Shown one piece after another: positions 9,411-32,353 of a DNA stretch of 34,807 nt (its first letter is position 1; every line of letters starts with the position of its first letter). The translations under genes and the position numbers were made by a program. The notes below the pieces were generated by a model. That model saw nothing but the letters and a program-made list of their open reading frames with translations. It ran no database searches and was not told the origin of the DNA. Origin of the DNA: a virus; IMG/VR virus record IMGVR_UViG_3300025286_000067, positions 1 through 34,807 of that record; one strand, written 5' to 3'.

Positions 9411-9701
9411 ATGCCAACAGACCCAACCATGCTCTGGAATGCTATTCTAAGTCTCGCCGCTGGAGGATTTATGTGGTGGATGCGAGGAGTTAGTCAACAT
9501 ATAGCCTATATAAAACGCCGAATGGCTGACACTCGTGAAGAGCTACCTAAAATCTATGCAACCAGAGAAGAGTTGGCTAGAGAGGTTACTGAAATTAAAA
9601 CTGAGATGCAACGGGATATGGAAAAACTATTAGGGAGATTTGATAAGCTTGAAAATAAATTAGATAGCTTACTAGCTAAATTTGTTACTAGTGTCAGATG
9701 A
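9411..9701 (+). CDS. Small membrane-anchored coiled-coil protein (possible lysis accessory)
   Basis: A 96-aa protein with one hydrophobic segment near residues 7-24 (LWNAILSLAAGGFMWWM) followed by a long charged helix rich in Glu, Lys and Arg with heptad-like spacing. This single-TM plus coiled-coil plan resembles small phage proteins sometimes annotated as holin-like or spanin-like, but no lipobox or second segment is visible. The start is 7 bases after AAGGA. Its stop overlaps the start of the IscA-like gene as ATGA, so the two are translated together. It could equally be a small virion or membrane protein of unknown use. Confidence 0.68.
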   Translation: MPTDPTMLWNAILSLAAGGFMWWMRGVSQHIAYIKRRMADTREELPKIYATREELAREVTEIKTEMQRDMEKLLGRFDKLENKLDSLLAKFVTSVR

Positions 9702-10018
9702 TTACTGTCACACCTGAAGCCAATAAACATCTTTCAGGCATATTAAAGAACTCTCCTGAATCTCAGGGAGTTCTTTTGTCTGTCAAGGGAGGAGGATGTT
9801 CTGGCTTTTCTTATGTCTGGTCTCTGGCTGAAGAGGAAGACAAAGCAGCAGAAAGAATACCACTGGAAATAGGGACGCTCTTTGTTGACCCCTTAGCGAT
9901 GATGTTTGTAACAGGTACTACTATTGATTATCGGGAGGATATTATGGGGTCTCTATTGAAGATAGATAATCCTAATGCCAAGTCTATGTGTGGATGTGGA
10001 GAAAGCTTCAGCTTCTAA
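9698..10018 (+). CDS. A-type iron-sulfur cluster carrier, IscA/SufA/HesB-like
   Basis: A 106-aa protein of normal length for the A-type carrier family. The three ligand cysteines stand at the expected places: Cys34 in GGGCSGFSY and Cys98 and Cys100 in the C-terminal MCGCGESFSF. In bacteria these proteins pass Fe-S clusters to apo-enzymes. On a phage it may supply clusters to phage or host proteins; the exonuclease at 17457-18317 has a four-cysteine pattern that could bind one. It is coupled to the preceding gene by ATGA and is the last plus-strand gene. Its stop overlaps the stop of the convergent small terminase gene by 4 bases. Confidence 0.9.
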   Translation: MITVTPEANKHLSGILKNSPESQGVLLSVKGGGCSGFSYVWSLAEEEDKAAERIPLEIGTLFVDPLAMMFVTGTTIDYREDIMGSLLKIDNPNAKSMCGCGESFSF

Positions 10019-14336: not shown

Positions 14337-14771
14337 TTAGTTGATTGGGAGAAGTTTTGCCTTCTCTTTTTCAGGAATATTAATTACAACCTGAATGGAT
14401 AGAACTCCATCTCGTAATGTAATATCTGAAACATCTGCATGTTCAGAAAGAGAAAAATTCTTTACAAACTTTCTCTCTGCAATTCCCTTATGCAAATACT
14501 CTGTCTTGTTATCAGAACTTTGCATGTCTCCTGAGATGGAAAGAATATCTTCTTTCAGTTCTATCGTCAGGTCATCCTTGGAAAAACCAGCAACAGCCAT
14601 CTCTATTTGATAGCCCTCTTCTGTCTTGATTAAATCATGTGGAGGATATGAAGGTAGTACTCCTCTCATGCGTTCTACATGAGTAAATAGCCTATCGAAT
14701 CCTATTGAATGACGGAAGAAACTATCCCATACATAGGGCGGAGTATCTTTAAAATTACGTGTTAGAATCAT
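14337..14771 (-). CDS. hsp20: Small heat shock protein Hsp20 (alpha-crystallin family)
   Basis: A 144-aa protein from the ATG at 14771, which has AAGGA 7 bases upstream; the 16-codon longer form from 14819 lacks such a site. It has an IbpA-like N-terminus (FFRHSIGFDRLF) and a full alpha-crystallin domain: IEMAVAGFSKDDLTIELKED, then HKGIAERKFVKNFSLSE, then the hallmark LRDGVLSIQV. It ends with the short tail PEKEKAKLLPIN. Hsp20 holds unfolding proteins for refolding. Phage copies are known in cyanophages, where a role in scaffold or capsid folding or host stress has been proposed. A TTGACA promoter lies just upstream. Confidence 0.93.
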   Translation of the reverse strand: MILTRNFKDTPPYVWDSFFRHSIGFDRLFTHVERMRGVLPSYPPHDLIKTEEGYQIEMAVAGFSKDDLTIELKEDILSISGDMQSSDNKTEYLHKGIAERKFVKNFSLSEHADVSDITLRDGVLSIQVVINIPEKEKAKLLPIN

Positions 14772-14848
14772 AATACAATCCTTTCCTTCAGTTAGACAAG
14801 GAATAAGAGAAAGCCACATAAAGTCTACTTTCTCCTATTACAGGGCGT

Positions 14849-14877
14849 ATTATTGCATATTTTGAAAGGCTTGTCAA
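14849..14877 (-). promoter_or_regulatory. Sigma70-like promoter for hsp20
   Basis: On the minus strand TTGACA (14872-14877) is followed after 17 bases by AATAAT (14849-14854), five of six matches to the -10 consensus. It lies between the reductase stop and the hsp20 start. The spacer AGCCTTTCAAAATATGC resembles the spacers of the promoters at 18922 and 32548. It probably drives hsp20 and the genes down to terS. Confidence 0.6.
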
Positions 14878-14885
14878 GAAAAAAA

Positions 14886-16562
14886 TTATACTCCGCAAGT
14901 GTCACCAGAAGCTGAGATAGCACAGATGTCATGAGTTTGTATATTATCCTCAAACTCCTCACCTAGTTTGGTAATGGCTTCCTGATAAGGAACAGGGGTC
15001 AATGGTTGACCTCCTCTGCAGCCGTCAGGGAAGCAGGTAAAGCCTCGTAGCCTGTGAGCATACTTGGCAAGTGTCTGAGTGAAGGCTTCGACGCCATCTT
15101 CATTGTTCTTTTCTGTACCCCATGATGGAAGATTGATGGTACTGGAAATAGACATATCCACATACTCTTGGACGTTAGCCTGAAAGCTCATACGGCGCTC
15201 ATAATTCTCAGCTAAATCCAAGGCCGACTCAATCGTGTCAGGAGGTGTATCATATATCTCTATCATTTCCTGTGCTGTACTGTCTACTACATACTGGTAG
15301 TGCCATCTCTTGTTCTTCATGTAACGGCGCTTGTAGGCTACTGCAAAGATAGGTTCAATACCTGTGGAAGTACCTCCCAGTATCCCTATAGTGCCTGTAG
15401 GAGCTACCGCTCGCACAGCTACAGGACAGGAGATAGAAGTGAAGGCAGAAAACTCCTTTGCAGTTCTGTCCGACTGAGCTTCATAAACTTTCAACCATCT
15501 ATGAAGTTCAGGAGTGGTCCCATACTTATGACCACGTTGTAGTAGCCATTCATGTAGACCCATCAGACCTAGTCCTAGTCGTCTGTTCTTGACACGTACC
15601 TTTGTTATCTTATCATAGGGAAGCTGTGCTCTGAGTGTACCACAAACAAGAAACTTGGTAGCTAACTCTACAACTTCACGTAGTTGATGGAGGTCATCAA
15701 TACGAGCGAAGTTCAGGCTTCCCAGATTACACACATCTGAATCATCTTCAGAGGTAACTTCTGTACATGCATTTCTTAATGTTTCATTTTCCTGAGCAAA
15801 GAAATTAAAAGAGAATCCCGGTTCAGCTGTAGACAAAGCCTGTCTTACATTAGTACGGAAGATATCTCCTACTTCTCCTGTCTGCCAGTAATTCAACAAC
15901 CACTCTGTATCATAATTAACAGAGATGTTTGTCATGTCCAGAGGTGCAGGAAAGTCGAAGTCATCCTGTTTAACATCGAACAGGCTCTGCCCTGTAGTGC
16001 CGACAGGGACATCCTTCCAGTTCTTGATGACCAAGAACTTGTCAATATCATTATGTTTCCAGTTAAGTGAAGCGTAGATAGCAGACCTTCTGGAGCCGCC
16101 CTGCATCACACGCCTGCCTATCTCGTTTATCATCATCATCTTTGGTATGGGACCTGAAGCAATTCCTCCTGTTCCCTTAAGGGTCTGGCCTTCTGAACGG
16201 TAGACAGAGTAATCAACTCCTATCCCACCGCCTGTCATCAGACAGCTCTCTGATTTCCAACTAAGGTCAGCCCAGTCTTCTCGTGTATCTTCTTCTGCTT
16301 TCAACAGATAACAATTGTTAAAGAATTTCTTTTCCCTTCCTGCATAGTAAAGATATCTACCACCGGGAATAAAACGCAGGTTTGAAATATGGTCAGCCAG
16401 TGCGACCTTCTCATCGTTTGTCATTTTGTTCTGACATACATCCTCTACCAAGGTGCATGCCAGCTCATGAAAGGTCTCTGCTCCTTCATGAGAATATTTA
16501 TTATAGAATATATCTTCGGAAAACTTCGACCTGAACTGTGGATTTCTGGCTGATTTAAACAT
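14886..16562 (-). CDS. nrdJ: Class II (adenosylcobalamin-dependent) ribonucleotide reductase
   Basis: A 558-aa protein that reduces ribonucleotides to deoxyribonucleotides. The core pattern is complete: the disulfide cysteines Cys84 (FNNCYL) and Cys278 (CNLGSLN), the N-C-E triad Asn264/Cys266/Glu268 in NACTEV, the SRRSA segment, and APTGTIGILGGTSTGIEPIF. A C-terminal Cys pair (ICAISASGDTCGV) may relay electrons. No small subunit (nrdB) or glycyl-radical activase is nearby, and the length and motifs fit monomeric class II, which needs vitamin B12. The start at 16562 is chosen over 16574 because GGGGGAGAAG stands just before it. It overlaps the DUF3310 gene by 8 bases. Confidence 0.9.
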   Translation of the reverse strand: MFKSARNPQFRSKFSEDIFYNKYSHEGAETFHELACTLVEDVCQNKMTNDEKVALADHISNLRFIPGGRYLYYAGREKKFFNNCYLLKAEEDTREDWADLSWKSESCLMTGGGIGVDYSVYRSEGQTLKGTGGIASGPIPKMMMINEIGRRVMQGGSRRSAIYASLNWKHNDIDKFLVIKNWKDVPVGTTGQSLFDVKQDDFDFPAPLDMTNISVNYDTEWLLNYWQTGEVGDIFRTNVRQALSTAEPGFSFNFFAQENETLRNACTEVTSEDDSDVCNLGSLNFARIDDLHQLREVVELATKFLVCGTLRAQLPYDKITKVRVKNRRLGLGLMGLHEWLLQRGHKYGTTPELHRWLKVYEAQSDRTAKEFSAFTSISCPVAVRAVAPTGTIGILGGTSTGIEPIFAVAYKRRYMKNKRWHYQYVVDSTAQEMIEIYDTPPDTIESALDLAENYERRMSFQANVQEYVDMSISSTINLPSWGTEKNNEDGVEAFTQTLAKYAHRLRGFTCFPDGCRGGQPLTPVPYQEAITKLGEEFEDNIQTHDICAISASGDTCGV

Positions 16563-16785
16563 CTTCTCCCCCATATTCTAATTCTATACACAAGTTAATG
16601 TAGTGCCGTGCCTTCAACAAATCTTGTAGTCCTTCACCTTTTATCCGATGTCTGGTAATATACTTAACTGCATTACCTTCACACCAGCTAAGGTTGTTAG
16701 CTATGATATATTCTGTAGGTTGTATCGCGCAATTCTTATAGTGGTCTCCTCCTACTTGTTGTTCTGAAGCTTTCTTTTTTCCCAT
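16555..16785 (-). CDS. DUF3310 protein (nucleotide-kinase-associated family)
   Basis: A 76-aa protein almost wholly made of the DUF3310 pattern: GGDHYKNCAIQPTEYIIANN, SWCEGNAVKYITRHRIKGEG, then DLLKARHYINLCIELE. The same domain occurs in T7 gp1.7, a nucleotide kinase, which fits its place beside the reductase, but this short form lacks any visible kinase part. It starts by TAATG overlap with the upstream gene and has GAGAGG 5 bases before the start. Confidence 0.88.
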   Translation of the reverse strand: MGKKKASEQQVGGDHYKNCAIQPTEYIIANNLSWCEGNAVKYITRHRIKGEGLQDLLKARHYINLCIELEYGGEDV

Positions 16786-23014: not shown

Positions 23015-23740
23015 CTATTGAAATGTAAATTTAACTAACTCAGTCGGTAACATTACCGCTAGTGAGCAGGATGTATTAAATCCTATACTATTTGCCATTT
23101 GGATAGTTGGATTGTAGACTAACAAGTAATTCTGAAACTCCTTTCTCTTTGTCAGTTTTATATAATTTCCCATACCTTTTTCTATCCCCTCAAAATCATC
23201 CAGACATATAACAGTTTTACTTAAGTCTATCAAATCAATGAACATATCCATGTCCTTGTCTTCACTTAATCTACCATCTAAATTAACGAAGTCAAAGGGA
23301 GGGGAGCCTGCTTCCTTCAGGGAACGTAACATTTCAGTACTTGTTTTCTTCTTATACTGAATAAGCTCACAGCTGTAAGGATTTTGCCAGAGAATTTCTA
23401 TATCATTCTCTCTATCGCAGGTATGTAACGGAACTTTATCATTCAACCTACCGGAGTCATAAATTCCTGCTGCCATAGAGACAGTGGACTTACCGATGTA
23501 AGTACCAATCTCCATGATGCGGTCAGGCTGAAAGTATCTCACCATATTATACAAGGCCCATCCAGTCAGAGGTTGGATGGAACCTGTCTTCTCATCTACA
23601 AGTTGTTCTCGACTTTCTGCTCTATCAAAATGTAGATTAAACAAAGTTGTAAGGTTACCATGACGAGCACCTTGCTCCTCAAATATTCTACGCCAGAATA
23701 TTTCAGAGAATAATTCCTGACTTATGTTAAAGTTATTCAT
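23015..23740 (-). CDS. Class I SAM-dependent methyltransferase (Methyltransf_24-like)
   Basis: A 241-aa protein from the second ATG (23740), which has GGGAAG 6 bases upstream; the ATG at 23746 is also possible. Motif I RIMEIGTYIGKSTVSMA lies near residues 85-105, then LHTCDREND and DFVNLDGRLSEDKDMDMFID, then TVICLDDFEGIEKGM. This order is like the methyltransferase domain of the 790-aa fusion protein, so it may act on the same type of small-molecule or sugar substrate. It overlaps the upstream 63-aa gene by 8 bases. Target unknown. Confidence 0.75.
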   Translation of the reverse strand: MNNFNISQELFSEIFWRRIFEEQGARHGNLTTLFNLHFDRAESREQLVDEKTGSIQPLTGWALYNMVRYFQPDRIMEIGTYIGKSTVSMAAGIYDSGRLNDKVPLHTCDRENDIEILWQNPYSCELIQYKKKTSTEMLRSLKEAGSPPFDFVNLDGRLSEDKDMDMFIDLIDLSKTVICLDDFEGIEKGMGNYIKLTKRKEFQNYLLVYNPTIQMANSIGFNTSCSLAVMLPTELVKFTFQ

Positions 23741-23924
23741 GTTCATCTTCCCATTCTTGTCTAATGATTTCGTTAATAAACCCTTCCTTGTCTGCCATGA
23801 TTTCGTCAGTTTCTTTACGAGCCAGCCGCCTAGCTTCCTTGAGAGAGTATCCTTCTCGCTGATACTCCCGTACTAATGCACGATGCCAAGTCTTTCTGTC
23901 TCGTTCCCATAAGTTTTTAGACAT
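23733..23924 (-). CDS. Small highly charged helical protein
   Basis: A 63-aa protein, nearly all charged helix: RDRKTWHRALVREYQREGYS, LKEARRLARKETDEIM, ending EWEDEHE. It is the first gene after the palindrome at 23945-23970 and overlaps the methyltransferase gene. The start has GAAAGAGAAAG upstream. No family or function is recognised. Confidence 0.6.
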   Translation of the reverse strand: MSKNLWERDRKTWHRALVREYQREGYSLKEARRLARKETDEIMADKEGFINEIIRQEWEDEHE

Positions 23925-23944: not shown

Positions 23945-23970
23945 AGTTGAGTGACATGTGTCACCCAACT
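23945..23970 (-). promoter_or_regulatory. 26-bp palindromic element, copy 1 (inverted orientation)
   Basis: On the minus strand AGTTG-G-GTGACA-CA-TGTCAC-T-CAACT, the most symmetrical of four copies in the window. It fills the short gap between the 75-aa and 63-aa genes. The other copies are at 31258, 32125 and 32261 in plus orientation. Symmetry suggests a site for a dimeric regulator. No U-tract follows, so it is not a terminator. Confidence 0.6.
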
Positions 23971-24197
23971 TAAGATGGATATTTAGTATTGATAAACAAG
24001 ACATCCATTAAATGGCTTCGCATGTTTACCAGTTCTTTTTCTATCTTTACCAACACATCTAGTTGTTCTACTGGAGGAAGAATCTTGTAATCTTCTTCCG
24101 GTGTTACAAATAGATGTTGCCAACCTTCTCCTTCAACTGTTTCAACTTCTTCTCCAATGGTAAAATATTTACGTTGTGTCAATGAATACTCACTCAT
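23970..24197 (-). CDS. Small acidic protein, function unknown
   Basis: A 75-aa protein from the ATG at 24197, which makes an ATGA overlap with the preceding stop and has AAGGT upstream; a longer form from 24215 is less likely. It contains YFTIGEEVETVEGEGWQHLF, then a helix (PVEQLDVLVKIEKELVNMRS). No family recognised. The last base of its stop touches the 26-bp palindrome. Confidence 0.6.
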   Translation of the reverse strand: MSEYSLTQRKYFTIGEEVETVEGEGWQHLFVTPEEDYKILPPVEQLDVLVKIEKELVNMRSHLMDVLFINTKYPS

Positions 24198-24610
24198 GAT
24201 GCTACCTTTCTCCATAGCGTTGTGTTACTTCCATCTGCACCCCACACATCTGAGACCCAGTCTCCTGTTCTAAGATAGTGGTTCATCTCTTTGATGTAAG
24301 CTTTTGCATCTGTTTGTTTTCTTGATGCTATTGCTTTCTCATCAGGAGATGCCTTGTAACTTCGGGCTATCTTTCCATATGCAGTTGCTTCTGCTCTCTG
24401 ATAGGCAATCCATTCGGCTACCGTATCAGGATGGATAGGATGGTCCTTTGGTTTCAAAGGTATCTTATACTCAGTGGTCTTTTGGATACTCACCTTCTTC
24501 TTTTTGGAAGGAAGCCTTACGTTGCGAGATTGTTTTCTCGACTTGTGGCGTTTCAAAAAGGTCGGGATGACTAACCCGTCCTCCGCCTGTTTCTCTTGCG
24601 ATGTCTTCAT
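24194..24610 (-). CDS. Conserved small phage protein overlapping the cupin gene
   Basis: A 138-aa protein. The N-terminal third is basic (PTFLKRHKSRKQSRNVRLPS then KKKK), the C-terminal part helical: TVAEWIAYQRAEATAYGKIA, KQTDAKAYIKEMNHYLRTGD, WVSDVWGADGS. Its first 140 bases overlap the cupin gene in a different frame. The only Shine-Dalgarno-like GGAG is 11 bases before the ATG. A GTG at 24493 near the cupin stop could be an alternative start, giving about 99 aa. The LKR-rich leader looks meaningful, so I keep the long form. Function unknown. Confidence 0.6.
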   Translation of the reverse strand: MKTSQEKQAEDGLVIPTFLKRHKSRKQSRNVRLPSKKKKVSIQKTTEYKIPLKPKDHPIHPDTVAEWIAYQRAEATAYGKIARSYKASPDEKAIASRKQTDAKAYIKEMNHYLRTGDWVSDVWGADGSNTTLWRKVAS

Positions 24611-24911
24611 GGTTTAATTCGCTCCAATAAATTTCCAGTACTTCTGCTTTCTCTGTTGCGCTGAACCGATGGTATTCACCAGCTGGTACAATACACATCT
24701 CGTTCTTATGTAGAATAGTTTTGTCAATCATTCCATTCTTCCATCTACTTACTTCCAGCTTACCTGACAGAACATAGAAAGCATTCTGCTTTGACTGGTG
24801 TTTATGTTTGGAACAAAAGCCGCCCTCTTCTACAGTGATGCGGTGAATTTCTATCGCTCCTGTCTGGAGTAATGGACGGGTAATTCCCCACACCTTACCA
24901 TCAGTTTGCAT
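24471..24911 (-). CDS. Cupin-fold protein
   Basis: A 146-aa protein with a single cupin domain in the first ~105 residues. Motif 1 is CSKHKHQSKQNAFYVLSGKL with metal-ligand candidates His36 and His38; the usual Glu is replaced (Gln42/Asn43). Motif 2 is NEMCIVPAGEYHRFSA with His81. The domain closes with VLEIYWSELN. Loss of the Glu is common in small phage cupins, so binding without catalysis is possible. The last ~38 residues overlap the next gene in another frame. AGGAGA stands 5 bases before the start. Ligand unknown. Confidence 0.8.
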   Translation of the reverse strand: MQTDGKVWGITRPLLQTGAIEIHRITVEEGGFCSKHKHQSKQNAFYVLSGKLEVSRWKNGMIDKTILHKNEMCIVPAGEYHRFSATEKAEVLEIYWSELNHEDIARETGGGRVSHPDLFETPQVEKTISQRKASFQKEEGEYPKDH

Positions 24912-24928
24912 TATCTTCTCCTATGTTA

Positions 24929-25093
24929 TTAGTCATTCAATCTGCTTCTCGCCAGAGTTTCAAGCAACTCTTCTGCGTGTTTCAGCTGCCCTTTCCACAT
25001 TTCTATTTCACTGTCTTTTTGTTTTAACAGCTCCTTCAAGGTAAAGATAGTATCTTCTGCCTCTCTCAAACGTACATAATTTTCGTTGTTCAT
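24929..25093 (-). CDS. Small coiled-coil protein
   Basis: A 54-aa ORF that starts by TAATG overlap with the preceding gene and has AAGGA 7 bases before the ATG. It is one continuous charged helix (YVRLREAEDTIFTLKELLKQ, KDSEIEMWKGQLKHAEELLE) with leucines in heptad-like positions, so a dimeric coiled coil is likely. No function recognised. Confidence 0.6.
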   Translation of the reverse strand: MNNENYVRLREAEDTIFTLKELLKQKDSEIEMWKGQLKHAEELLETLARSRLND

Positions 25094-25377
25094 TAGTATT
25101 TCCTTTTACCAGACATTGCAGGTAATCTTGTTGTCCACCCATTAGTTGTTAAAGGTGCCTGACCTATATGTACTTCAGAGGTAGTTTCTATCCAGACCTC
25201 TGCTCCACATTTTAAAGGTTGGTCCGGTGAATATACTATATCACAGGCCCCATCTATATGCACCCAATGTCCGTAAGTGTTTGATTTATAATCCTTAACT
25301 GTAATCACAGGGTCTCTGGTCCCGTGCTTGCGGTTACGTTTAATGTGATGTTGGTTGACGTGGATACGTTTAAGCAT
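25093..25377 (-). CDS. Conserved basic phage protein (KRIHVNQH type)
   Basis: A 94-aa protein from the ATG at 25377, which has GAGGA 8 bases upstream and overlaps the zinc-ribbon gene by 8 bases; a longer reading from 25449 is a shadow of that gene. The pattern MLKRIHVNQHHIKRNRKHGT, DPVITVKDYKSNTYGH, VYSPDQPLKCGAEVWIETTS is one I recognise from many bacteriophage and actinobacterial hypotheticals. It is probably a small beta barrel. Function unknown. Confidence 0.72.
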   Translation of the reverse strand: MLKRIHVNQHHIKRNRKHGTRDPVITVKDYKSNTYGHWVHIDGACDIVYSPDQPLKCGAEVWIETTSEVHIGQAPLTTNGWTTRLPAMSGKRKY

Positions 25378-25543
25378 TCTTTTGTTCCTCTTTAAAGATA
25401 TAACCTGCTCCACATCTGGTGCATCTGAAGCTGCCATCTTCGTATACAAAGAAGTGTGCGTGCATCAGTTCCCAGTTGGAACAGTTCTCACATACCATTG
25501 GGTATGGTTCTTCTGTCTCTGGTAATCTAACTACATCACCCAT
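25370..25543 (-). CDS. Small zinc-ribbon protein
   Basis: A 57-aa ORF beginning MGDVVRLPETEEPYPMVCEN. CENC near residues 18-21 and CTRCG near 41-45 form a classic two-knuckle zinc ribbon, separated by the ELMHAHFFVYEDGSFR linker. AGAGG lies 7-8 bases before the start. It sits between the GP88-like and basic protein genes, with tight overlaps. It may bind nucleic acid or be a structural adaptor; partner unknown. Confidence 0.68.
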   Translation of the reverse strand: MGDVVRLPETEEPYPMVCENCSNWELMHAHFFVYEDGSFRCTRCGAGYIFKEEQKNA

Positions 25544-25544
25544 A

Positions 25545-26216
25545 TTAGTACCTCTTTACTTTCTCTACTATTGTATCTACTCCATTGTCTGGTGTGTAGC
25601 ATAGTAAACAATCCTTACACTTCTGTCCAGTACAATTTTGTAATTCCACGTACTCATGTGCAAGAACATTATTGAATGTGCGGTCAAAGTGTTTTGGAGG
25701 TTTGCTCAGAATTGTACCTACCTTCTTGTTGGAATAGATAAGGATAAGATTGGCAGGCTTCTCACGCTGGTCGAAGAATGGCCTAATGATGTCCGTTCTC
25801 TTCGTCCAGAGAGCGAAGATGCAGTGCGGGTTGTGCTCTGCAATCCTGCAATAGTTCTCTATGTGATTGAATTTAGGATACTTTATTCCATCCACGGTTT
25901 CAGTTATCAGCTCACCATGAGCATCAAATCTATAGTATAATTCTAGGATGGTGGGTAACTCATGTGATTCCAGTACCCTCACAGGAAACAGGTCACTGTT
26001 CCTCTGCAATGCAGGTGCAGTATTCTTACGAAAACCCTTGAGCATATCATATGAGTAACATACCCCACAGATATCCACTACTTCACCTGCTTCTTTGTTA
26101 CGCTTCTTACCACGTATGTAGTTATCATGACAGAATTTATTGGTAAGCGTATTCACACTGACAGACTTAAACAATTCCAACTTGCCTGTCAAGTAAGTCT
26201 CATGCACTAATTGCAT
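25545..26216 (-). CDS. GP88-like cysteine-rich phage protein
   Basis: A 223-aa protein with the gene product 88 layout: N-terminal Cys29 and CGVCY (Cys50, Cys53), a middle YYRFDAHGELITETVDG, then IFALWTKR and LILIYSNKK, and a C-terminal cluster NCTGQKCKDCLLCYT (Cys195, 200, 203, 206). In this family the cysteines probably bind a metal or Fe-S cluster. The family is known from mycobacteriophages and others but its role is not established. AAGGAG stands upstream of the start. Confidence 0.65.
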   Translation of the reverse strand: MQLVHETYLTGKLELFKSVSVNTLTNKFCHDNYIRGKKRNKEAGEVVDICGVCYSYDMLKGFRKNTAPALQRNSDLFPVRVLESHELPTILELYYRFDAHGELITETVDGIKYPKFNHIENYCRIAEHNPHCIFALWTKRTDIIRPFFDQREKPANLILIYSNKKVGTILSKPPKHFDRTFNNVLAHEYVELQNCTGQKCKDCLLCYTPDNGVDTIVEKVKRY

Positions 26217-26228
26217 GGCTAGTTCTCC

Positions 26229-26291
26229 TTATGTTACAGCCAGTAACACTAAAAATACAACAAGACCAATCATTATGTACTCAGCTTTCAT
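26229..26291 (-). CDS. Putative 20-aa membrane peptide
   Basis: A very short ORF, MKAEYIMIGLVVFLVLLAVT, almost entirely one transmembrane helix. AGGAGG is 6 bases before its ATG, and it overlaps the stop of the 90-aa gene, as coupled micro-genes do. Its size makes the call tentative. Confidence 0.4.
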   Translation of the reverse strand: MKAEYIMIGLVVFLVLLAVT

Positions 26292-26553
26292 CCTCATCCT
26301 CCTCTTCCTGTCCATGTTTCCAGTACATCTCTTCTTCCCAGTCATGGGTCAACTCTTCCAGCTTCTCAAACATCTCATAGCTGTCTGATGTCTCTGCTTC
26401 GGTAGCTATCCATTTCATTCTAAGTCTACGAACTTCTTCATACGTAAGCTCCGTCTTTTCTATTGTCTCAATAGCATACTCAAGTAGGGCATCATCTCGT
26501 ATCCTACTCCACAATTGTATGCTTTCAAGTACATCGTCTAGTCTCTTAGACAT
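26281..26553 (-). CDS. Acidic helical protein, function unknown
   Basis: A 90-aa protein, mostly helix (LDDVLESIQLWSRIRDDALL, YEEVRRLRMKWIATEAETSD) with a very acidic C-terminus (HGQEEEDEDES). The start has AAGGAAGAG upstream and overlaps the preceding gene by 8 bases. Acidic small proteins in such regions are sometimes DNA mimics or inhibitors, but nothing specific shows that here. Confidence 0.6.
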   Translation of the reverse strand: MSKRLDDVLESIQLWSRIRDDALLEYAIETIEKTELTYEEVRRLRMKWIATEAETSDSYEMFEKLEELTHDWEEEMYWKHGQEEEDEDES

Positions 26554-26722
26554 TACTCTTCCTTTCTATTTCAGCTGCTACTTCTTCTAAGTGTATCAAG
26601 TGACCTCGCACAACGGCGAGAACATTCTGCATAGACAGCCCTTCTTCACATGCTAACAGACATTCTGTTTCAAGACACTTGAATAATCTGTCAGCATGTT
26701 TGTGTACTTCAGCTTTCGTCAT
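26546..26722 (-). CDS. Small protein of 58 aa, function unknown
   Basis: The ORF starts MTKAEVHKHADRLFKCLETE and continues CLLACEEGLSMQNVLAVVRG to HLIHLEEVAAEIERKSNV. It is helical with three cysteines. A GGAG lies ~10 bases before the ATG. It fills the gap between the integrase-arm-like gene and the 90-aa gene and overlaps the latter by 8 bases, the usual spacing in this operon. No family recognised. Confidence 0.6.
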   Translation of the reverse strand: MTKAEVHKHADRLFKCLETECLLACEEGLSMQNVLAVVRGHLIHLEEVAAEIERKSNV

Positions 26723-26729
26723 CCCAGTA

Positions 26730-27086
26730 CTACTCCTTTCTTCTGCATATGTACAATCTGACTGTTTTATCTTCCTTCTCAGAAGACCAAATTGTTACAG
26801 CTATCTTGTTATTAGCTGTGTCTACTGCTTCGTATGAATTAATGTAAACGCAATCCTCCTCTGTAAATTCCCAATCGTAATATTCTGAAGTGATGGTATA
26901 GTCTTGTCCATCCAATCCATAATCCCACTCATTTAATAAGGAATTTTTCTGAAGAAGTGCATCTCGTTTTCGTATAGCTACTTCCAAATCACGAGTATGC
27001 AAGCTACATCTTTTCATTTTTTTAGTGCCTTTCAAGCGCTTCTTAAAATGCCAGATGCCATTGCGTTGATAAAGATAACGTGCCAT
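26730..27086 (-). CDS. Orphan integrase-arm-like (DUF6538-like) DNA-binding protein
   Basis: A 118-aa protein from the ATG at 27086, joined by TAATG to the preceding gene; a longer frame start is discarded. The first ~45 residues, ARYLYQRNGIWHFKKRLKGT then LHTRDLEVAIRKRDALLQ, look like the N-terminal arm-type DNA-binding domain of tyrosine recombinases. The rest (YDWEFTEEDCVYINSYEAVD, then IAVTIWSSEKEDKTVRLYIC) is a small beta-rich domain, not a catalytic core, and no R-H-R-Y residues are present. It may be a stand-alone DNA-binding regulator or excision-like factor. Confidence 0.6.
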   Translation of the reverse strand: MARYLYQRNGIWHFKKRLKGTKKMKRCSLHTRDLEVAIRKRDALLQKNSLLNEWDYGLDGQDYTITSEYYDWEFTEEDCVYINSYEAVDTANNKIAVTIWSSEKEDKTVRLYICRRKE

Positions 27087-28015
27087 TACGCAGCCAGCGC
27101 CAAGGATGCCCACTCAGTTGAGTTAAGCATCTTACGAACCTTCTCTTCACGCCCTACCAGAGCGTTCTGAGAGGCTGCTCCTTCACGAGACTTGGTATGT
27201 GTGCTCCATGCGGTAGCCGCATTGTATGCACTCCACAAACTACCTTGGTCTCTCATACCATACTTTTCGTAGACACCTTTACCATGAATGTGACGGTTCT
27301 CTTCATCGAATGTCTTCATGAGATTAGACAGCCGCACTTGGTTAGGCTTGTTCTTTCTTGTTACATTGTCCTGATGCTTGGCTAATGTCTTGCTGAAGAG
27401 GTTGATAGCCTGCTCACGAGTGACAGGTGTAACATACCAGCGGCGCATCTCTTCCGCACCTTCACCTGCAATGTACTCAAGAGCGTTACCCAACTTAGCC
27501 ATGAACTCATCCACATTGAAGTTCTTGCTATGCCTGTTAGTTATGTAGGTAATCTTATCACCCAGCCATTGCCCATTGTAGCAATGCATGTCGAAGAAAC
27601 CTACGGACCCATTATGCTTCCATGTCCTGTTGTGAGAAGTACGAAAGAATAATTGTGGATGAAGCTTACTGTGGCCTATCTGCATTGAATGAGCAGGGAA
27701 GGTAGCTTCCAACATAAGTTGTGAGCCATTCCCATACACATTAGTCCTGAACGCAGCTCCGGTCAGGTCCAATGGAGACTTACGAATGGCATACTCTACG
27801 CCATCCACGATAGTAGCATACTGTTGAAGGTTGTATGACTCTGATACAATAGCCAGTGGCTCCTTGGTATCTGTACGTCGAAGTCCCATGCCTACTTCAG
27901 GTGAGACTGCTAACAGTCCACTCGTCCAAGTACCCGTAGACATGTACTCGTCCATATCCCATGCGTGAAGTGGGAACTTCTCTACTTGAAAGTTAACTGC
28001 ATCATGATTAAACAT
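27086..28015 (-). CDS. DUF932 phage/plasmid-like protein
   Basis: A 309-aa protein of the DUF932 type found on phages and plasmids. Signature stretches are LRRTDTKEPLAIVSESYNLQ near residue 45, GVEYAIRKSPLDLTGAAF, PQLFFRTSHNRTWKHNGSVG, and GSLWSAYNAATAWSTHTK near 265. Its biochemical role is not established. It is the longest gene of the accessory region and is preceded by AAGGAAAAAGG. It overlaps the upstream gene by 8 bases and the downstream gene by one. Confidence 0.85.
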   Translation of the reverse strand: MFNHDAVNFQVEKFPLHAWDMDEYMSTGTWTSGLLAVSPEVGMGLRRTDTKEPLAIVSESYNLQQYATIVDGVEYAIRKSPLDLTGAAFRTNVYGNGSQLMLEATFPAHSMQIGHSKLHPQLFFRTSHNRTWKHNGSVGFFDMHCYNGQWLGDKITYITNRHSKNFNVDEFMAKLGNALEYIAGEGAEEMRRWYVTPVTREQAINLFSKTLAKHQDNVTRKNKPNQVRLSNLMKTFDEENRHIHGKGVYEKYGMRDQGSLWSAYNAATAWSTHTKSREGAASQNALVGREEKVRKMLNSTEWASLALAA

Positions 28016-28199
28016 TGCCTTTTTCCTTTGCTATTTTTTTGTCAAGTTCTCTTACTCTGGCTCCGACATTGTTCTCGTCGCCAGTCATTACGCCAGCAAG
28101 TATAGCATTATACATGTTGACTAGTCTCTCCCGCTGGTCCTCAAGGGTAGCGAGATAGATTTCTTTTGGTTTCTTCTTCGGGATATCCGTCGAAGTCAT
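28008..28199 (-). CDS. Small helical protein, function unknown
   Basis: A 63-aa protein (PKKKPKEIYLATLEDQRERL, LDKKIAKEKGNV) with a canonical AAGGAGG 6 bases before its ATG, so the start is well supported even though it lies 59 bases inside the preceding gene in another frame. Charged helices dominate. It resembles small phage coiled-coil proteins without a known role. Confidence 0.65.
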   Translation of the reverse strand: MTSTDIPKKKPKEIYLATLEDQRERLVNMYNAILAGVMTGDENNVGARVRELDKKIAKEKGNV

Positions 28200-28356
28200 C
28201 CATATCCTCCTTATCTTGGCCGTCTAAGTATTGTAGACGCTCATTGAGAGAGGTTAACATTTCTTCAAGTGACTTGTCATCGTCACCCATTTCTCTTAGC
28301 AGTTCCCACATATCTGGTGGGATATCTGCCTTCGACTCAAAGTTATATCTCTCCAT
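28141..28356 (-). CDS. Small acidic protein, function unknown
   Basis: A 71-aa protein from the ATG at 28356, with AAGAAGGTGAG just upstream; the longer frame from 28461 is a shadow of the ArfA-like gene. The body is DMWELLREMGDDDKSLEEML then NERLQYLDGQDKEDMDDFDG, strongly acidic and helical. It overlaps the ArfA-like gene by 14 bases and the next gene by 59. Confidence 0.55.
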   Translation of the reverse strand: MERYNFESKADIPPDMWELLREMGDDDKSLEEMLTSLNERLQYLDGQDKEDMDDFDGYPEEETKRNLSRYP

Positions 28357-28510
28357 TCTCACCTTCTTTCTTTTGTTTGTTACGATTGTATGAGCCGCTA
28401 CCTTTCTTAGGCGGCACCACATGTTTGCCCAATGCCCTAAGCTGCTTCCAGTAAGGGTCACGGGACTTCCTCACCTTGCGGTTGAGGATATCTCTAAGTG
28501 ATTTATGCAT
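28343..28510 (-). CDS. Probable ArfA-like alternative ribosome-rescue protein
   Basis: A 55-aa, very basic ORF. The stretch SRDPYWKQLRALGKHVVPPK followed by KGSGSYNRNKQKKEG matches the ArfA pattern HDPLFRQRV...KKGKGSYMRK of E. coli: an Asp-Pro aromatic turn, a basic strand, then KKGxGSYxR. ArfA enters the empty mRNA channel of stalled ribosomes through its basic tail and recruits RF2 for release. Here the frame ends with a normal TAA and is coupled to the next gene by a 14-base overlap. The first ~14 residues (MHKSLRDILNRKVR) are also basic. No strong Shine-Dalgarno is seen. Identity is inferred from one motif. Confidence 0.6.
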   Translation of the reverse strand: MHKSLRDILNRKVRKSRDPYWKQLRALGKHVVPPKKGSGSYNRNKQKKEGENGEI

Positions 28511-28548
28511 GCGTGAGCATACTCCTATTGAGACAGGATGTCAACAGA

Positions 28549-28968
28549 CTACAGATTTTCTTCTATATAATCTGCTATCTCTAGGAAGGTCTCCCCACTA
28601 TCATTCATTTCTGCGAGGGTTGAAGCCTCCTGAGAATCCAGTCCACCCATTCTCTTAAGCATGTCTGGGCTAGGAAAGTCATTCTTTACTTCTGCAAAGG
28701 GAGGTGGGTTGCCCCAAGCAGCAGTTGCTTCCTCTCTATCCTTGTAAAGTCTATGCTGCTGCTCAACCCTAAGCTCCGAATAACTATCAATGTCACCATT
28801 TGGCACCTTCTCAATATAGCTATAAACACCTGCTACATCTGCAGCTACACCCAGACAGCAACGTCCATTTGTACCATCACCCAGACGTGCCCGTATTTGT
28901 TTATAGATATCGCTACGCAAAAGGTCGAGCCACTTCTCTTTGAACTTAGGTTCTAGGCTATAAGACAT
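28549..28968 (-). CDS. Conserved phage CCLG-motif protein
   Basis: A 139-aa protein beginning with a KWLDLLRSDIYKQIRARLGD helix, then NGRCCLGVAADVAGV, then a helical C-terminal half ending MNDSGETFLEIADYIEENL. The xWLxxLRSxxYxQ...CCLGV pattern is a widespread phage and bacterial hypothetical family. No function is known to me. AGAGGA is 9 bases before the ATG; the next upstream gene overlaps it by 11 bases. Confidence 0.78.
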   Translation of the reverse strand: MSYSLEPKFKEKWLDLLRSDIYKQIRARLGDGTNGRCCLGVAADVAGVYSYIEKVPNGDIDSYSELRVEQQHRLYKDREEATAAWGNPPPFAEVKNDFPSPDMLKRMGGLDSQEASTLAEMNDSGETFLEIADYIEENL

Positions 28969-29158
28969 ATCGTTTTTCCTCTTCTATTTTCATGCAGTTG
29001 ATGAACTTATGTGAATTAAGTTTGGCATTGGCCCCATAGAACAGAGCTATGGGTTCCTTCCTTAGCACATCACGCACTACTACTTCAGTAAACTCTCCAC
29101 CAGAATGTAGATGGTGATGTTTGGTAATCCTTTCCCAACCATATCTGAGTTTACTCAT
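28958..29158 (-). CDS. Small protein, function unknown
   Basis: A 66-aa protein from the ATG at 29158, which overlaps the end of the zinc-ribbon gene by 8 bases; a longer frame from 29308 is mostly its shadow. The body SKLRYGWERITKHHHLHSGG, EFTEVVVRDVLRKEPIALFY looks like a small alpha/beta protein with a His cluster. No family recognised. Confidence 0.55.
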   Translation of the reverse strand: MSKLRYGWERITKHHHLHSGGEFTEVVVRDVLRKEPIALFYGANAKLNSHKFINCMKIEEEKRYVL

Positions 29159-29363
29159 CTGATACTCCATACACTTTGTCCTGACAAGTCTGACACATAC
29201 CAGAGATGGTATATTCCTTTCTCGACAAAGCATCCCTGAAATTTGTATCAGCATCCTTACACCACACACATTCATTGTTGCGTATAGCAGTCGGTCGATG
29301 CTTGCCACTGATGTTCGTTAAAACGTCCTCAATGGCTACTGATTTTACAGTAGGTTCAGGCAT
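29151..29363 (-). CDS. Zinc-finger phage protein (SRKEYTISGMCQTCQD type)
   Basis: A 70-aa protein with two cysteine pairs, CVWC (Cys32, Cys35) and CQTC (Cys57, Cys60), and the stretch FRDALSRKEYTISGMCQTCQ DK that is highly conserved across unrelated phages. A small zinc-binding fold is clear, the task unknown. The start shares one base with the preceding stop and has AAAGGG upstream. Confidence 0.78.
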   Translation of the reverse strand: MPEPTVKSVAIEDVLTNISGKHRPTAIRNNECVWCKDADTNFRDALSRKEYTISGMCQTCQDKVYGVSDE

Positions 29364-29593
29364 TAGTGTACCCTTTCAGTGTCAGGCCAATCTTCACCTG
29401 CTTCTTTCTCAGCATGTTGCAGAGTTTCTATTATTAAACTTACAAATCCGTGATGAACATGAAAAAGATTCTTTTCCATATCACCGGAAGGATTCTCCAA
29501 CGCTGCTGCCAGTTTAAGCAGCTCCTCAGAGTTTTCTTTTGCACACGTAAGAACACGGTCAATGTTCCTAAGATTAGCTTCAAAGTTAGACAT
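29363..29593 (-). CDS. Small helical protein, function unknown
   Basis: A 76-aa protein from the ATG at 29593, with AAGGA 8 bases upstream; a start at 29608 has no such site. It is a helical bundle-like sequence: NFEANLRNIDRVLTCAKENS, EELLKLAAALENPSGDMEKN, HHGFVSLIIETLQHAEKEAG. No family recognised. Confidence 0.6.
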   Translation of the reverse strand: MSNFEANLRNIDRVLTCAKENSEELLKLAAALENPSGDMEKNLFHVHHGFVSLIIETLQHAEKEAGEDWPDTERVH

Positions 29594-29604
29594 CGCTTTT
29601 CCTT

Positions 29605-29802
29605 TCAATAGATGCGACTGTCATCAAATACGTAAGGAACTACCTTACGCTCACTGCCATTGGCGAATATAGCTACATCACCAGCGACAATCTCGTTAAC
29701 GGCGCGTCGGTCATGCCAGCGGTGTATGAAGTCAGGCTGACCCCATATTTTTAACGCTGAATGATACTCGCTGCCAGTAAATCCTATGAAGTGTATTGCC
29801 AT
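29605..29802 (-). CDS. Conserved small phage protein (HFIGF type)
   Basis: A 65-aa protein starting MAIHFIGFTGSEYHSALKIW at 29802, with GGGAGGG just upstream. The order IHFIGF, then QPDFIHRWHDRRAVNEIVAG then DVAIFANG is a recognisable pattern in many phage and prophage hypotheticals. Function unknown. Confidence 0.72.
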   Translation of the reverse strand: MAIHFIGFTGSEYHSALKIWGQPDFIHRWHDRRAVNEIVAGDVAIFANGSERKVVPYVFDDSRIY

Positions 29803-29826
29803 GTGCCCTCCCATACTGCAAAGTAT

Positions 29827-30261
29827 CTAGCCATTATAATAGCTCCCATACTGGTCATAGTCAGGGTCATCTTTATTTAACATAACAAGTCCTCTCCCTG
29901 TAACAGGTATGTCAAGAGCATCAGAAGAAAAAGGCCAATTCTCCTTTATGTCTTCTGCTCCACGATAATGATACCATGTACATGTTTTACCATAAACATC
30001 AACAAGGTGTGCGCCACTCTGTACTAGAGCCATAGGCACATCGTCGCCGCCTATTCCTAAAGACTTTGAAGATACAAGCTGTATCCAATCAGGGAGAGGA
30101 TAGTTTCCCATAAATACACCAGCTAAATCAGGTGCGTCATCAGTTTGTTGGTTCTCCTGCACCCAATGTTCCAGCCCATTATGAAAATAAACCCACGGGG
30201 TTGAACGATGACAACCAGTATCACTAGCCTGTCTGAGTTGGAGAAGCGGAGTGTTATCCAT
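29827..30261 (-). CDS. Hypothetical protein, 144 aa
   Basis: Contains an aromatic, Asp-rich sequence: CHRSTPWVYFHNGLEHWVQE, NYPLPDWIQLVSSKSLGIGG, TCTWYHYRGAEDIKENWPFS, ending in DPDYDQYGSYYNG. The composition suggests a compact beta protein without a signal peptide. The start overlaps the end of the 56-aa gene by 8 bases. No family recognised. Confidence 0.6.
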   Translation of the reverse strand: MDNTPLLQLRQASDTGCHRSTPWVYFHNGLEHWVQENQQTDDAPDLAGVFMGNYPLPDWIQLVSSKSLGIGGDDVPMALVQSGAHLVDVYGKTCTWYHYRGAEDIKENWPFSSDALDIPVTGRGLVMLNKDDPDYDQYGSYYNG

Positions 30262-30424
30262 TATGTTTCACCCTGTTTGAGGACGCCACGCCCTCCGTTA
30301 TATCACGCGCTTCATCGCGAGTGAAATCAAACTCCTCTGTCAATATCTCTATCGTCTCAAGGAGTGTATGAGTAGGCAACAGCTCAACCACACGGTCACA
30401 TGCGGCAAAAGGATTGTCACTCAT
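30254..30424 (-). CDS. Small helical protein, 56 aa
   Basis: The ORF reads MSDNPFAACDRVVELLPTHT, LLETIEILTEEFDFTRDEAR, DITEGVASSNRVKHNG. It starts by ATGA overlap with the 63-aa gene and its end overlaps the 144-aa gene by 8 bases, the same coupling as its neighbours. Function unknown. Confidence 0.6.
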   Translation of the reverse strand: MSDNPFAACDRVVELLPTHTLLETIEILTEEFDFTRDEARDITEGVASSNRVKHNG

Positions 30425-30612
30425 GAGTTAATTTGTGAGAGGTAGCGTAATCTTTCGACAGAAGAATTCTCTGCCTCTAAAGCATTGGCAAAGAACATGT
30501 CTGCCTTAGCAGTATCACCCACCTCTTCAGCTTCAACAGCCAGCTTCAGACGTGAAGCAGCAGCATCAATCAGGACTGTGCCTGACCCATCCAGTTTCAT
30601 AAGTAACGGCAT
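30421..30612 (-). CDS. Small helical protein, 63 aa
   Basis: A protein rich in Ala, Glu and Leu: LIDAAASRLKLAVEAEEVGD, KADMFFANALEAENSSVERL. It looks like two helices of a TPR-like or bundle fold. GAAAGG lies ~8 bases before the ATG. The stop overlaps the next start as ATGA. Function unknown. Confidence 0.6.
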   Translation of the reverse strand: MPLLMKLDGSGTVLIDAAASRLKLAVEAEEVGDTAKADMFFANALEAENSSVERLRYLSQINS

Positions 30613-30627
30613 AGCATTACCTTTCTG

Positions 30628-30900
30628 TTATGATACATCAAAATCAAACAGCAGCTGCCAATTATCATTGGTCACTACTGCCTGCTTAGTTGCCTTGTCA
30701 TACATGGGCCACAACTCCAGCGCCCCATTAATCTGGTCCTTCACTACCAGTATCGTAGCGAGTGTGAAAGTACCAAGTCCTCGCCTATTGAGTACCCATA
30801 GACAGAAGGCACGTAACTGGTGTTCTTTCATGTCTTTGGGCAACTCGACCAGCTTAACAAGCGTGTTAAGACAAGTCATCATGACGACATCATTACCCAT
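30628..30900 (-). CDS. Hypothetical protein, 90 aa
   Basis: The start at 30900 has GAGG 7 bases upstream; an earlier ATG at 30915 is also possible because the stop of a tiny upstream ORF overlaps it as ATGA. Helical: VVMMTCLNTLVKLVELPKDM, LRAFCLWVLNRRGLGTFTLA, then DNWQLLFDFDVS. No family recognised. Confidence 0.55.
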   Translation of the reverse strand: MGNDVVMMTCLNTLVKLVELPKDMKEHQLRAFCLWVLNRRGLGTFTLATILVVKDQINGALELWPMYDKATKQAVVTNDNWQLLFDFDVS

Positions 30901-30911
30901 GATAAGCCTCG

Positions 30912-31004
30912 TCATCTGGTTGATGTTGTTCGTCTACGTGCGACCGCAACGCAGAAGTATGCACAGGCATGAAAAGCCCATACATACCAATAGGTTGCGC
31001 CCAT
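30912..31004 (-). CDS. Putative 30-aa hydrophobic peptide
   Basis: A tiny ORF, MGATYWYVWAFHACAYFCVA then VARRRTTSTR, has one hydrophobic helix and a basic tail and ends by ATGA overlap with the ATG at 30915. It lacks a good Shine-Dalgarno, so the call is weak; the coupling is the main support. Confidence 0.25.
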   Translation of the reverse strand: MGATYWYVWAFHACAYFCVAVARRRTTSTR

Positions 31005-31020
31005 CTATGGTAGACCATTC

Positions 31021-31233
31021 TCATGCTCGTTTATGTCGTTTTAGGGAATTGTGTGATGAAAACATCGGCTCTCTCTTTTCGTGCGTGCGCCCATCTAGGT
31101 GAACTATTGTTATTATCTGCACACACCTACCGTGTCCCTTGGTGTAGAGCTTACGCTTGGGGGTGTTCCCATATAGCTTGAGCCTACGGCATATCTCTGA
31201 GATATTACTGTTGTGGTACTGAGCTGCGCCCAT
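31021..31233 (-). CDS. Small basic protein at the head of the leftward accessory operon
   Basis: A 70-aa protein from the ATG at 31233 (AAGGA about 10 bases upstream). The body SNISEICRRLKLYGNTPKRK, LYTKGHGRCVQIITIVHLDG, then THEKREPMFSSHN and KRHKRA is basic with a possible DNA-binding helix. It is the first gene after the palindrome at 31258, so a regulatory role is possible. Longer frames from 31293 and 31298 run through the palindrome and are rejected. Confidence 0.5.
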   Translation of the reverse strand: MGAAQYHNSNISEICRRLKLYGNTPKRKLYTKGHGRCVQIITIVHLDGRTHEKREPMFSSHNSLKRHKRA

Positions 31234-31257
31234 GCGACCTGTTTCCTTTTTTGCTGG

Positions 31258-31283
31258 AGTTGAGTGACACATGTCACTGAAGT
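31258..31283 (+). promoter_or_regulatory. 26-bp palindromic element, copy 2
   Basis: AGTTG-A-GTGACA-CA-TGTCAC-T-GAAGT. The 19-base core GTTGAGTGACACATGTCAC is identical to copies at 32125 and 32261. It lies between the terminator of the 237-aa gene and the first gene of the accessory operon, where a leftward promoter and its operator would be expected. Confidence 0.6.
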
Positions 31284-31290
31284 ATTGCCA

Positions 31291-31326
31291 CAAAACAAAA
31301 GAAAACCCCCAGCGTTAACTGGGGGC
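31291..31326 (-). terminator. Intrinsic terminator after the 237-aa gene
   Basis: CCCCCAG (31306-31312) pairs with CTGGGGG (31319-31325) around a six-base loop. On the minus strand the stem is followed by TTTTCTTTTGTTTTG, an excellent U-tract. It lies 22 bases downstream of the stop of the 237-aa gene, making that gene a separate transcription unit. In the plus direction only CTTCTTCT follows, so it could act weakly both ways. Confidence 0.85.
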
Positions 31327-31347
31327 TTCTTCTAAATATTTACGATG

Positions 31348-32061
31348 TTAAACAGTCGCTTGTTCCTGTACGGCTTTCATAGCCTTGGCAATTTTGCCAG
31401 TGCCGTGATTGCCACCGTGAACCTTAGCATTTCGACTACCGTGCTTTTTAGCTTCCGCACGATTGTCTTTCCGCTTGTCAGTAATGAGAGACAGAATGTC
31501 GACTTGAATTTTCCTAATTTTCAAATCGTTAGCAAGCTTATCATCGTTAGCCTTTTCGTACGTCTTTTTGAAGTGTCGACGTAGAGCAGTGGGTGACATC
31601 TTGTACATTTCAGTCAGTGTTAGATTTTTTGTACCAGTGTCGTTTCCTGCTGCAGCATTTCGCCAAGCTTTAAACGTGTACAGTTTGCGATTGTGTACAG
31701 TATGTTTGTAATCATCTAAATCTTTACAGTTCGCAAACAATGCGCGAACTTTCGGATTTAACGTTAGCCTGCTAAGTTGTCTTGCGAATGTTTCCGACTT
31801 GGTAATGTTAGGATTTAACCATTTAATCCAGTCACTTGCAGTCGTAACATTGTTGTCTGCCTTTTTAGTGCGTGACTTGACATCCAGAACTAGTTCGCTT
31901 GCTAAGTAAACAAGCGGACCAAGAATGTCGCCAACTGTATTTTGAGATTTCTCGTACGTTTCACTTGCTGTCTTTACTGTCGCGACAACTGTACCAAATA
32001 TCTCATGTTTGCTTAGGTCACTAAGCACTATTCGAGACGCACCGTTTTTTAACTGTTCCAT
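31348..32061 (-). CDS. Orphan basic protein, 237 aa, in its own transcription unit
   Basis: No family recognised. The first ~70 residues are helical (SDLSKHEIFGTVVATVKTAS, ILGPLVYLASELVLDV). The middle is KTKNLTLTE-like with TFKAWRNAAAGNDTGTKNLT, and the last third is very basic (KLANDLKIRKIQ, TDKRKDNRAEAKKHGSRNAK, HGGNHGTGKIAKAMK). Synonymous-site use looks different from neighbouring genes, with more TCG, CGT and ACG codons, hinting at a separate origin. Two 26-bp palindromes and a CACTGC/GCAGTG hairpin lie upstream, a strong terminator downstream. An early gene that binds nucleic acid or controls this region is a reasonable inference. Confidence 0.75.
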   Translation of the reverse strand: MEQLKNGASRIVLSDLSKHEIFGTVVATVKTASETYEKSQNTVGDILGPLVYLASELVLDVKSRTKKADNNVTTASDWIKWLNPNITKSETFARQLSRLTLNPKVRALFANCKDLDDYKHTVHNRKLYTFKAWRNAAAGNDTGTKNLTLTEMYKMSPTALRRHFKKTYEKANDDKLANDLKIRKIQVDILSLITDKRKDNRAEAKKHGSRNAKVHGGNHGTGKIAKAMKAVQEQATV

Positions 32062-32100
32062 AGTTTACCTACTGTTAGGTTGCTAATGAATAATGCATCT

Positions 32101-32115
32101 CACTGCATAGCAGTG
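32101..32115. promoter_or_regulatory. Perfect 6-bp hairpin in the leader of the 237-aa gene
   Basis: CACTGC-ATA-GCAGTG, a short perfect inverted repeat ~40 bases upstream of the 237-aa start. It may be an operator half or an mRNA leader hairpin; there is no U-tract. Confidence 0.35.
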
Positions 32116-32124
32116 CCGGTCGCT

Positions 32125-32150
32125 AGTTGAGTGACACATGTCACTGAACC
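32125..32150 (+). promoter_or_regulatory. 26-bp palindromic element, copy 3
   Basis: AGTTG-A-GTGACA-CA-TGTCAC-T-GAACC, 64 bases upstream of the 237-aa start. It shares the GTTGAGTGACACATGTCAC core with copies at 31258 and 32261. It probably regulates the 237-aa gene. Confidence 0.6.
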
Positions 32151-32210
32151 AACGTTAGACTGTTATTCACAATGAGAAACATTAAGAATCTACATCCTAA
32201 ACCAATGGGC

Positions 32211-32242
32211 GCGGTATACAAGCTTTTATTTTGTGCGGTATA
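32211..32242. repeat. Pair of GCGGTATA direct repeats
   Basis: GCGGTATA occurs at 32211-32218 and 32235-32242, exactly 24 bases apart, between the two palindromes. On the minus strand they read TATACCGC. They could be promoter or activator half-sites for the leftward 237-aa gene. Confidence 0.4.
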
Positions 32243-32260
32243 GTGGTTCGCATACTAACT

Positions 32261-32286
32261 AGTTGAGTGACACATGTCACCGAACT
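32261..32286 (+). promoter_or_regulatory. 26-bp palindromic element, copy 4
   Basis: AGTTG-A-GTGACA-CA-TGTCAC-C-GAACT. It lies 136 bases from copy 3 and just before the iterons at 32294, so one regulator could bridge both. Confidence 0.6.
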
Positions 32287-32293
32287 AAGTGCT

Positions 32294-32353
32294 TAGTAGG
32301 CTAACGAGTACAGTAGCAAGCTAACGAGTTCGATAGCAGGCTAACGATTAAAG
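32294..32353. repeat. Three 20-bp iterons
   Basis: Three tandem units of exactly 20 bp: TAGTAGGCTAACGAGTACAG, TAGCAAGCTAACGAGTTCGA, TAGCAGGCTAACGATTAAAG. The core GCTAACGA is invariant. The 20-bp period puts each copy on the same DNA face. Iterons next to A-rich DNA are typical of replication origins or of operator arrays. Confidence 0.75.

Follow-up and report, generated by a model that had tools for sequence, protein, structure and literature searches.

The DNA stretch analyzed here (the window) is a marine phage sequence of 34,807 bp (IMGVR_UViG_3300025286_000067, positions 1 to 34,807); its large terminase and the terminases of Pelagibacter phages HTVC023P and HTVC027P share ~39% identity. 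The window is ~96% coding; noncoding DNA makes up 4% of its length and 11% of the 22.8–32.7 kb segment. On the two sides of a control region at ~32.1–32.6 kb lie leftward accessory, replication, and nucleotide-metabolism genes and the rightward terminase genes, the first leftward gene coding for a protein of 237 aa. A 26-bp two-fold-symmetric element with the core GTGACA-NN-TGTCAC is present in four copies: two upstream of the 237-aa gene, one beyond its terminator, and one ahead of a 63-aa gene. Relatives were gathered by scans with DNA polymerase and terminase, which gave 160 loci on incomplete contigs. The features of the locus are as follows (element sequences are those of the + strand):

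23733..23924, − strand: 63-aa gene behind copy 1, heading the methyltransferase/primase-helicase/DNA polymerase group
23945..23970, − strand: copy 1 of the element (PAL1), AGTTGAGTGACATGTGTCACCCAACT, between the stop codon of an 81-aa gene and a ribosome-binding site; the start of the 63-aa gene is ~20 bp downstream
31021..31233, − strand: 70-aa gene, first in the accessory leftward unit behind copy 2; homologous sequence in L098
31258..31283, − strand: copy 2 (PAL2), AGTTGAGTGACACATGTCACTGAAGT, directly beyond the terminator of the 237-aa gene; the first accessory gene is ~25 bp downstream
31302..31329, − strand: the 237-aa gene's intrinsic terminator; L089 and L090 have an equivalent stem-loop sequence
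31348..32061, − strand: 237-aa gene, candidate cognate regulator, predicted to be all-helical
32125..32150, − strand: copy 3 (PAL3), AGTTGAGTGACACATGTCACTGAACC; the start codon of the 237-aa gene is ~64 bp downstream
32168..32181: box CACAATGAGAAACA, adjoining copy 3; the window, L089, and L090 do not differ here, and L098 has one change
32261..32286, − strand: copy 4 (PAL4), AGTTGAGTGACACATGTCACCGAACT, in the divergent control region; equivalent place in L098
32548..32577, + strand: sigma-70-like promoter TTGACA-18-TATACT of the rightward terminase unit, by consensus match only (11/12)

Three 20-bp iteron-like direct repeats around GCTAACGA (32294–32353) adjoin copy 4, and similar repeats occur at the same place in L098. 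Host-like genes were seen at 9698–10018 and 14337–16574, including one for an Fe-S cluster biosynthesis domain protein and, by eye, those for an apparent small heat-shock protein and ribonucleotide reductase.

Direct reading confirmed the coordinates given for the four copies in the initial annotation, as well as the identity of the last three over GTTGAGTGACACATGTCAC. The 26-bp pattern proposed there is valid only with the center read as CA or TG and with 1–2 differences allowed in the outer right arm. Copy 1 had been described as inverted; this is true of its central dinucleotide, TG for CA, and not of its left half on the + strand, AGTTGAGTGACA, which matches the other three. Read on the leftward strand, the copies are AGTTGGGTGACACATGTCACTCAACT, ACTTCAGTGACATGTGTCACTCAACT, GGTTCAGTGACATGTGTCACTCAACT, and AGTTCGGTGACATGTGTCACTCAACT. 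All four have TGTCACTCAACT as their downstream half; the upstream half is variable, and CA or TG occupies the center. When up to 3 mismatches were allowed, the pattern was found nowhere but at these four places (7 strand hits), whereas shuffles gave an expectation of 0.02. A 26-bp PWM scored 38.9–43.0 for the four copies and 10.7 for the best other place in the window, in agreement with the earlier failure to see a further copy by eye. As previously noted, every copy lies in a gap, outside plausible genes rather than scattered in coding DNA, and on the upstream side of leftward genes (4/4 in both respects). Three of the four surround the 237-aa gene, which suggests autoregulation.

Three relatives carry a homologue of the 237-aa gene together with sites of their own. 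The proteins of the window, L098, L089, and L090 are homologous (phmmer 1e-11 to 1e-103), the L098 orthologue being 70% identical to that of the window. L098 has three sites at equivalent places, and in all of them the spacer is 3 instead of 2 (GTGACACCATGTCAC, GTGACA-N3-TGTCAC), a concerted change; its whole 59,988-bp record contained no site beyond these three. L089, which is the other end of the L010 contig, encodes a 220-aa homologue and has two GTTGTACGTACAAC sites, and L090 encodes a 222-aa homologue and has two sites with the core GTGGGNNNNCCCAC (GTGGG..CCCAC). The operator cores of L089 and L090 are thus different inside AGTT..AACT arms; the outer arms of the L090 sites resemble those of the window, but the core differs. 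The place of copy 3 is occupied in all three relatives, and the adjacent box CACAATGAGAAACA is kept although the neighboring operator cores differ. Conservation in relatives, on which the initial annotation had let its reading depend, applies to positions, each relative having its own type of site, while the sequence is lineage-specific. The center of the sites alternates with its own reverse complement (CA/TG; CCA/TGG), and the flanks hold their orientation. The flipping of the center within fixed flanks and the spacing change in all L098 copies both agree with recognition of duplex DNA by a symmetric protein.

To the left of the locus, L089 and L090 share 99.2% identity over 236 bp, and to the right 96.8% over 2.8 kb; their regulators, homologous as they are, have nevertheless diverged (phmmer ~1e-18). 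The difference is not a simple block swap because the terminator inside the exchanged region is conserved.

Other phage groups have a comparable arrangement. In L107/L111, L109, L120, L128/L139, and L131/L146, a gene of 150–260 aa occupies the same place, each flanked by its own repeated palindrome. Between the groups the regulators show no detectable homology, and the profiles of four other regulator families, compared with that of the window family, gave no link; a common regulator function therefore rests on position and covariation. Pairs with homologous genes (window/L098, L107/L111, L128/L139, and L131/L146) have a common palindrome type, while diverged or unrelated genes do not have the palindrome in common. 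Despite 97% identity over 3 kb of sequence adjoining the locus, L128 and L131 have unrelated genes and unrelated palindromes, TTTACA-N-TGTAAA in L128 and TTAGYTRAAA-NN-TTTYARCTAA in L131. One gene start common to L131 and L145 has an equal ribosome-binding-site region in both, with each phage’s own palindrome before the start. Palindromes with at least 3 copies were detected in 16 of 80 terminase loci, including some phages of a separate hairpin class (see below), and in none of the shuffles of those loci.

If 12 phages are divided by their genes into four pairs and four singletons, palindromes grouped at random would reproduce these four pairs with a chance of 1 in 51,975 (12!/(2^4 4! 4!)); this value is optimistic owing to phylogeny, a concern partly answered by the near-identical pairs with different types, and it describes a covariation found by inspection, not by a preset test. 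Palindrome types are nearly private to the gene type. The exceptions are an L145-type site in L131, an L109-type match in L138, and single L128- and L109-type matches in L140. The L145-type palindrome of L131 is at 1701, the other five sites of this phage being of the L131 type; it is perhaps a leftover of recombination. L145 has four palindromes, none of them upstream of the candidate gene, and no repeated palindrome was found in L133 and L118. Single GTGACA-N3-TGTCAC matches in L127, L130, L132, L136, L139, and L145 were rejected as operators: they occupy one conserved place, which we took as coding, and an ORF was confirmed there in the four loci checked (L127, L132, L139, and L145). Next to the regulator gene of L131 there are also three asymmetric repeats TACGGTCATACATG (3649–3765, − strand), similar to which is ACGGTCATA in L128, L139, and L146.

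The 237-aa protein had no match in Pfam, PHROG, or PDB and belonged to no recognizable DNA-binding family. Its homologues were absent outside this phage group from phage records, bacterial genomes, and PDB, and viral contigs contained none beyond the window, L098, L089, and L090 types. The AlphaFold model was weak (pLDDT 65, pTM 0.50), and a fold search with it found no confident structural match; for the L131/L146 regulators, the models were uninformative (pLDDT 39). In the predicted structure, the helices around residues 75–100 might, as a conjecture, form a helix-turn-helix; its possible second helix differs between the window, L089, and L090 proteins. The initial annotation had named the 237-aa protein and an arm-like protein as candidate binders. 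Comparison with relatives makes the former the best candidate, and no reason was found to involve the latter.

Taken from the sequences compared, the reading that we consider probable is a DNA-binding phage regulator that controls its own gene and acts at dispersed operators, with protein and sites diversifying like a heteroimmunity cassette. The relatives lend good support to the earlier idea of an operator serving several leftward units through one dimeric regulator, a protein that would bind as a symmetric dimer. The second idea put forward at that time, a phage-specific promoter, is not favored: the type of the element changes with the neighboring gene, copy 1, placed after a stop codon and ahead of a ribosome-binding site, has no convincing promoter, and no phage RNA polymerase was seen among the genes of the window. 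Sigma-70 hexamers around the sites were not more frequent than by chance, and no clear promoter was found at copy 1 or copy 2. A half-site of copy 4 could be the −35 hexamer of a leftward promoter (GTGACA-17-TAGTAT).

Copy 1 constitutes an insertion of ~34 bp that follows the 81-aa stop codon and precedes the ribosome-binding site for the 63-aa gene; the insertion is absent from L010 and L011, which have the same gene junction without any site. The Methyltransf_24 methyltransferase gene between the 63-aa and 56-aa genes (23015–23746) is likewise absent from L010 and L011. Since copy 1 has no convincing promoter, a roadblock would be the simplest way for it to act.

Activator sites, through which the 237-aa protein would switch on leftward middle genes as in a virulent phage, would equally be expected upstream of leftward genes, where all copies lie. 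Copy 2 directly follows a terminator, so that transcription of the accessory unit would have to begin anew or read through, and a lysogenic repressor is not required, as the one profile used for tyrosine integrases (PF00589) matched nothing in 15 records of relatives, several of them fragments. Copy 1, however, is ~20 bp from a start codon, usually too near the gene for an activator site, a −10 hexamer at a fitting distance was seen for neither copy 1 nor copy 2, and the junction shared with L010 and L011 has no site in those phages; we regard activation as unlikely.

The elements might also act as RNA hairpins in leftward 5′ leaders, as processing sites or targets of an RNA-binding protein. 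Folding z values of −4.4 (copy 1), −3.7 (copy 3), and −5.5 (L098 copy 2) agree with this, but copy 2 folds no better than shuffles (−0.4) and copy 4 does so weakly (−2.1). A different set of relatives truly has covarying leader hairpins: AGTATC-UURC-GATACT hairpins were found in L113, L122, L130, L132, L136, L138, L143, L147, L148, and some others, shortly before leftward start codons. Their AGTAG bulge is constant, and the outer stems covary between copies. In DNA form (AGTAG-AGTATC-TTRC-GATACT), this leader hairpin is often flanked by AATTA, e.g., at 7439 in L143 and 7483 in L138. It looks like an RNA element and may be an undescribed one of phages; there was no Rfam match in the four loci scanned, and the members checked had no gene of at least 140 aa in the regulator’s position directly left of the control region. 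The L138-type AGTATC repeats, initially a candidate for the same kind of palindrome as in the window, were set apart owing to their covarying outer stems. The window sites show no such covariation around a constant inner hairpin: arm changes are uncompensated (C opposite C in most copies), the right half is constant, and the loop would have to alternate between a sequence and its own reverse complement. No Rfam match was obtained in the window or the relatives tested. An RNA role of the window sites is improbable.

A role as replication-origin or partition sites, with the 237-aa protein as an initiator or centromere-binding protein, would account for the clustering in the divergent control region beside the iteron-like repeats; copy 1, however, lies ~8 kb away at a gene start, sites in other phages are spread over several gene starts, and the protein has no match to initiator or partition families in Pfam or PHROG, which leaves this explanation very little room. 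Palindromes of about this size are typical of bacterial regulators, so a host-encoded protein could be thought of, but phages with 97–99% identical flanks, presumably with common hosts, have different palindromes that match their own neighboring gene, making a host regulator the most doubtful of all.

Under the regulator–operator reading, the product of the 237-aa gene, which lies between copies 2 and 3, would bind the 26-bp elements as two-fold-symmetric duplex operators. Made early, it would control its own leftward transcription by binding at copies 3 and 4, and would also bind copies 2 and 1, which stand in front of the accessory and the replication genes, respectively. Repression is favored, with less confidence than the operator reading itself: most likely, the protein would occlude the control region at copies 3 and 4 and act at copies 1 and 2 as a roadblock to the elongating polymerase, in the manner of stoperators. 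Regulator and operators would change together at one locus, and selection may favor a switch insensitive to the regulators that co-infecting relatives carry, as in heteroimmunity.

In the immunity regions of lambdoid phages, regulator and operators are exchanged between otherwise similar phages. Here, by contrast, the locus consists of a single gene, different phages have unrelated protein families, and there is no known lysogeny. The stoperators of Cluster A mycobacteriophages (L5, Bxb1) are likewise dispersed sites, mostly in one orientation to transcription, and there, as here, site sequence and regulator diverge together between relatives (PMC6550527, PMC9283540). They are, however, asymmetric 13-bp sites in ~20–30 copies genome-wide, bound by a monomeric repressor of temperate phages, whereas we observed a 26-bp near-palindrome in 2–5 copies (4 in the window, 3 in the 60-kb L098) and found no tyrosine integrase; with no Pfam or PHROG match, the 237-aa protein was not assigned to the Cluster A repressor family. 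The SPBRE repeats of the temperate prophage SPbeta are also intergenic phage repeats, and their prediction came long before the identification of MrpR, the phage-encoded regulator (PMC10516654). MrpR has a tyrosine-recombinase fold of 15 helices and 4 strands, whereas the 237-aa protein is shorter and predicted to be all-helical (by a weak model, with no significant PDB match). The 17-bp dyad repeats of Cluster O phages such as Corndog (PMC4351075) similarly have constant arms and a center in both orientations (3 bp, TTT/AAA), in phages with no integrase and no reported stable lysogens; they differ in numbering >30 copies, and the passages on them name no cognate protein and report no lineage-specific exchange. 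By analogy, the window arrangement would work like Cluster A stoperators and SPBRE/MrpR, with the site anatomy of Corndog, and by the features tested it belongs to none of these systems.

More tentatively, and with somewhat more doubt than trust, we propose that a large group of uncultured marine phages without tyrosine integrase may possess an exchangeable regulator-plus-operator locus served by several unrelated new DNA-binding families, which would split virulent or non-integrating phages into heteroimmune types; operators would be gained at pre-existing junctions, as with copy 1, and replaced together with the regulator. If this is true, immunity-type specificity switching, known from temperate phages, would also occur in marine phages with no sign of integration. 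The locus would then offer several new sequence-specific DNA-binding families along with their natural targets and natural specificity changes, and the question of whether closely related phages avoid each other’s regulators would become testable.
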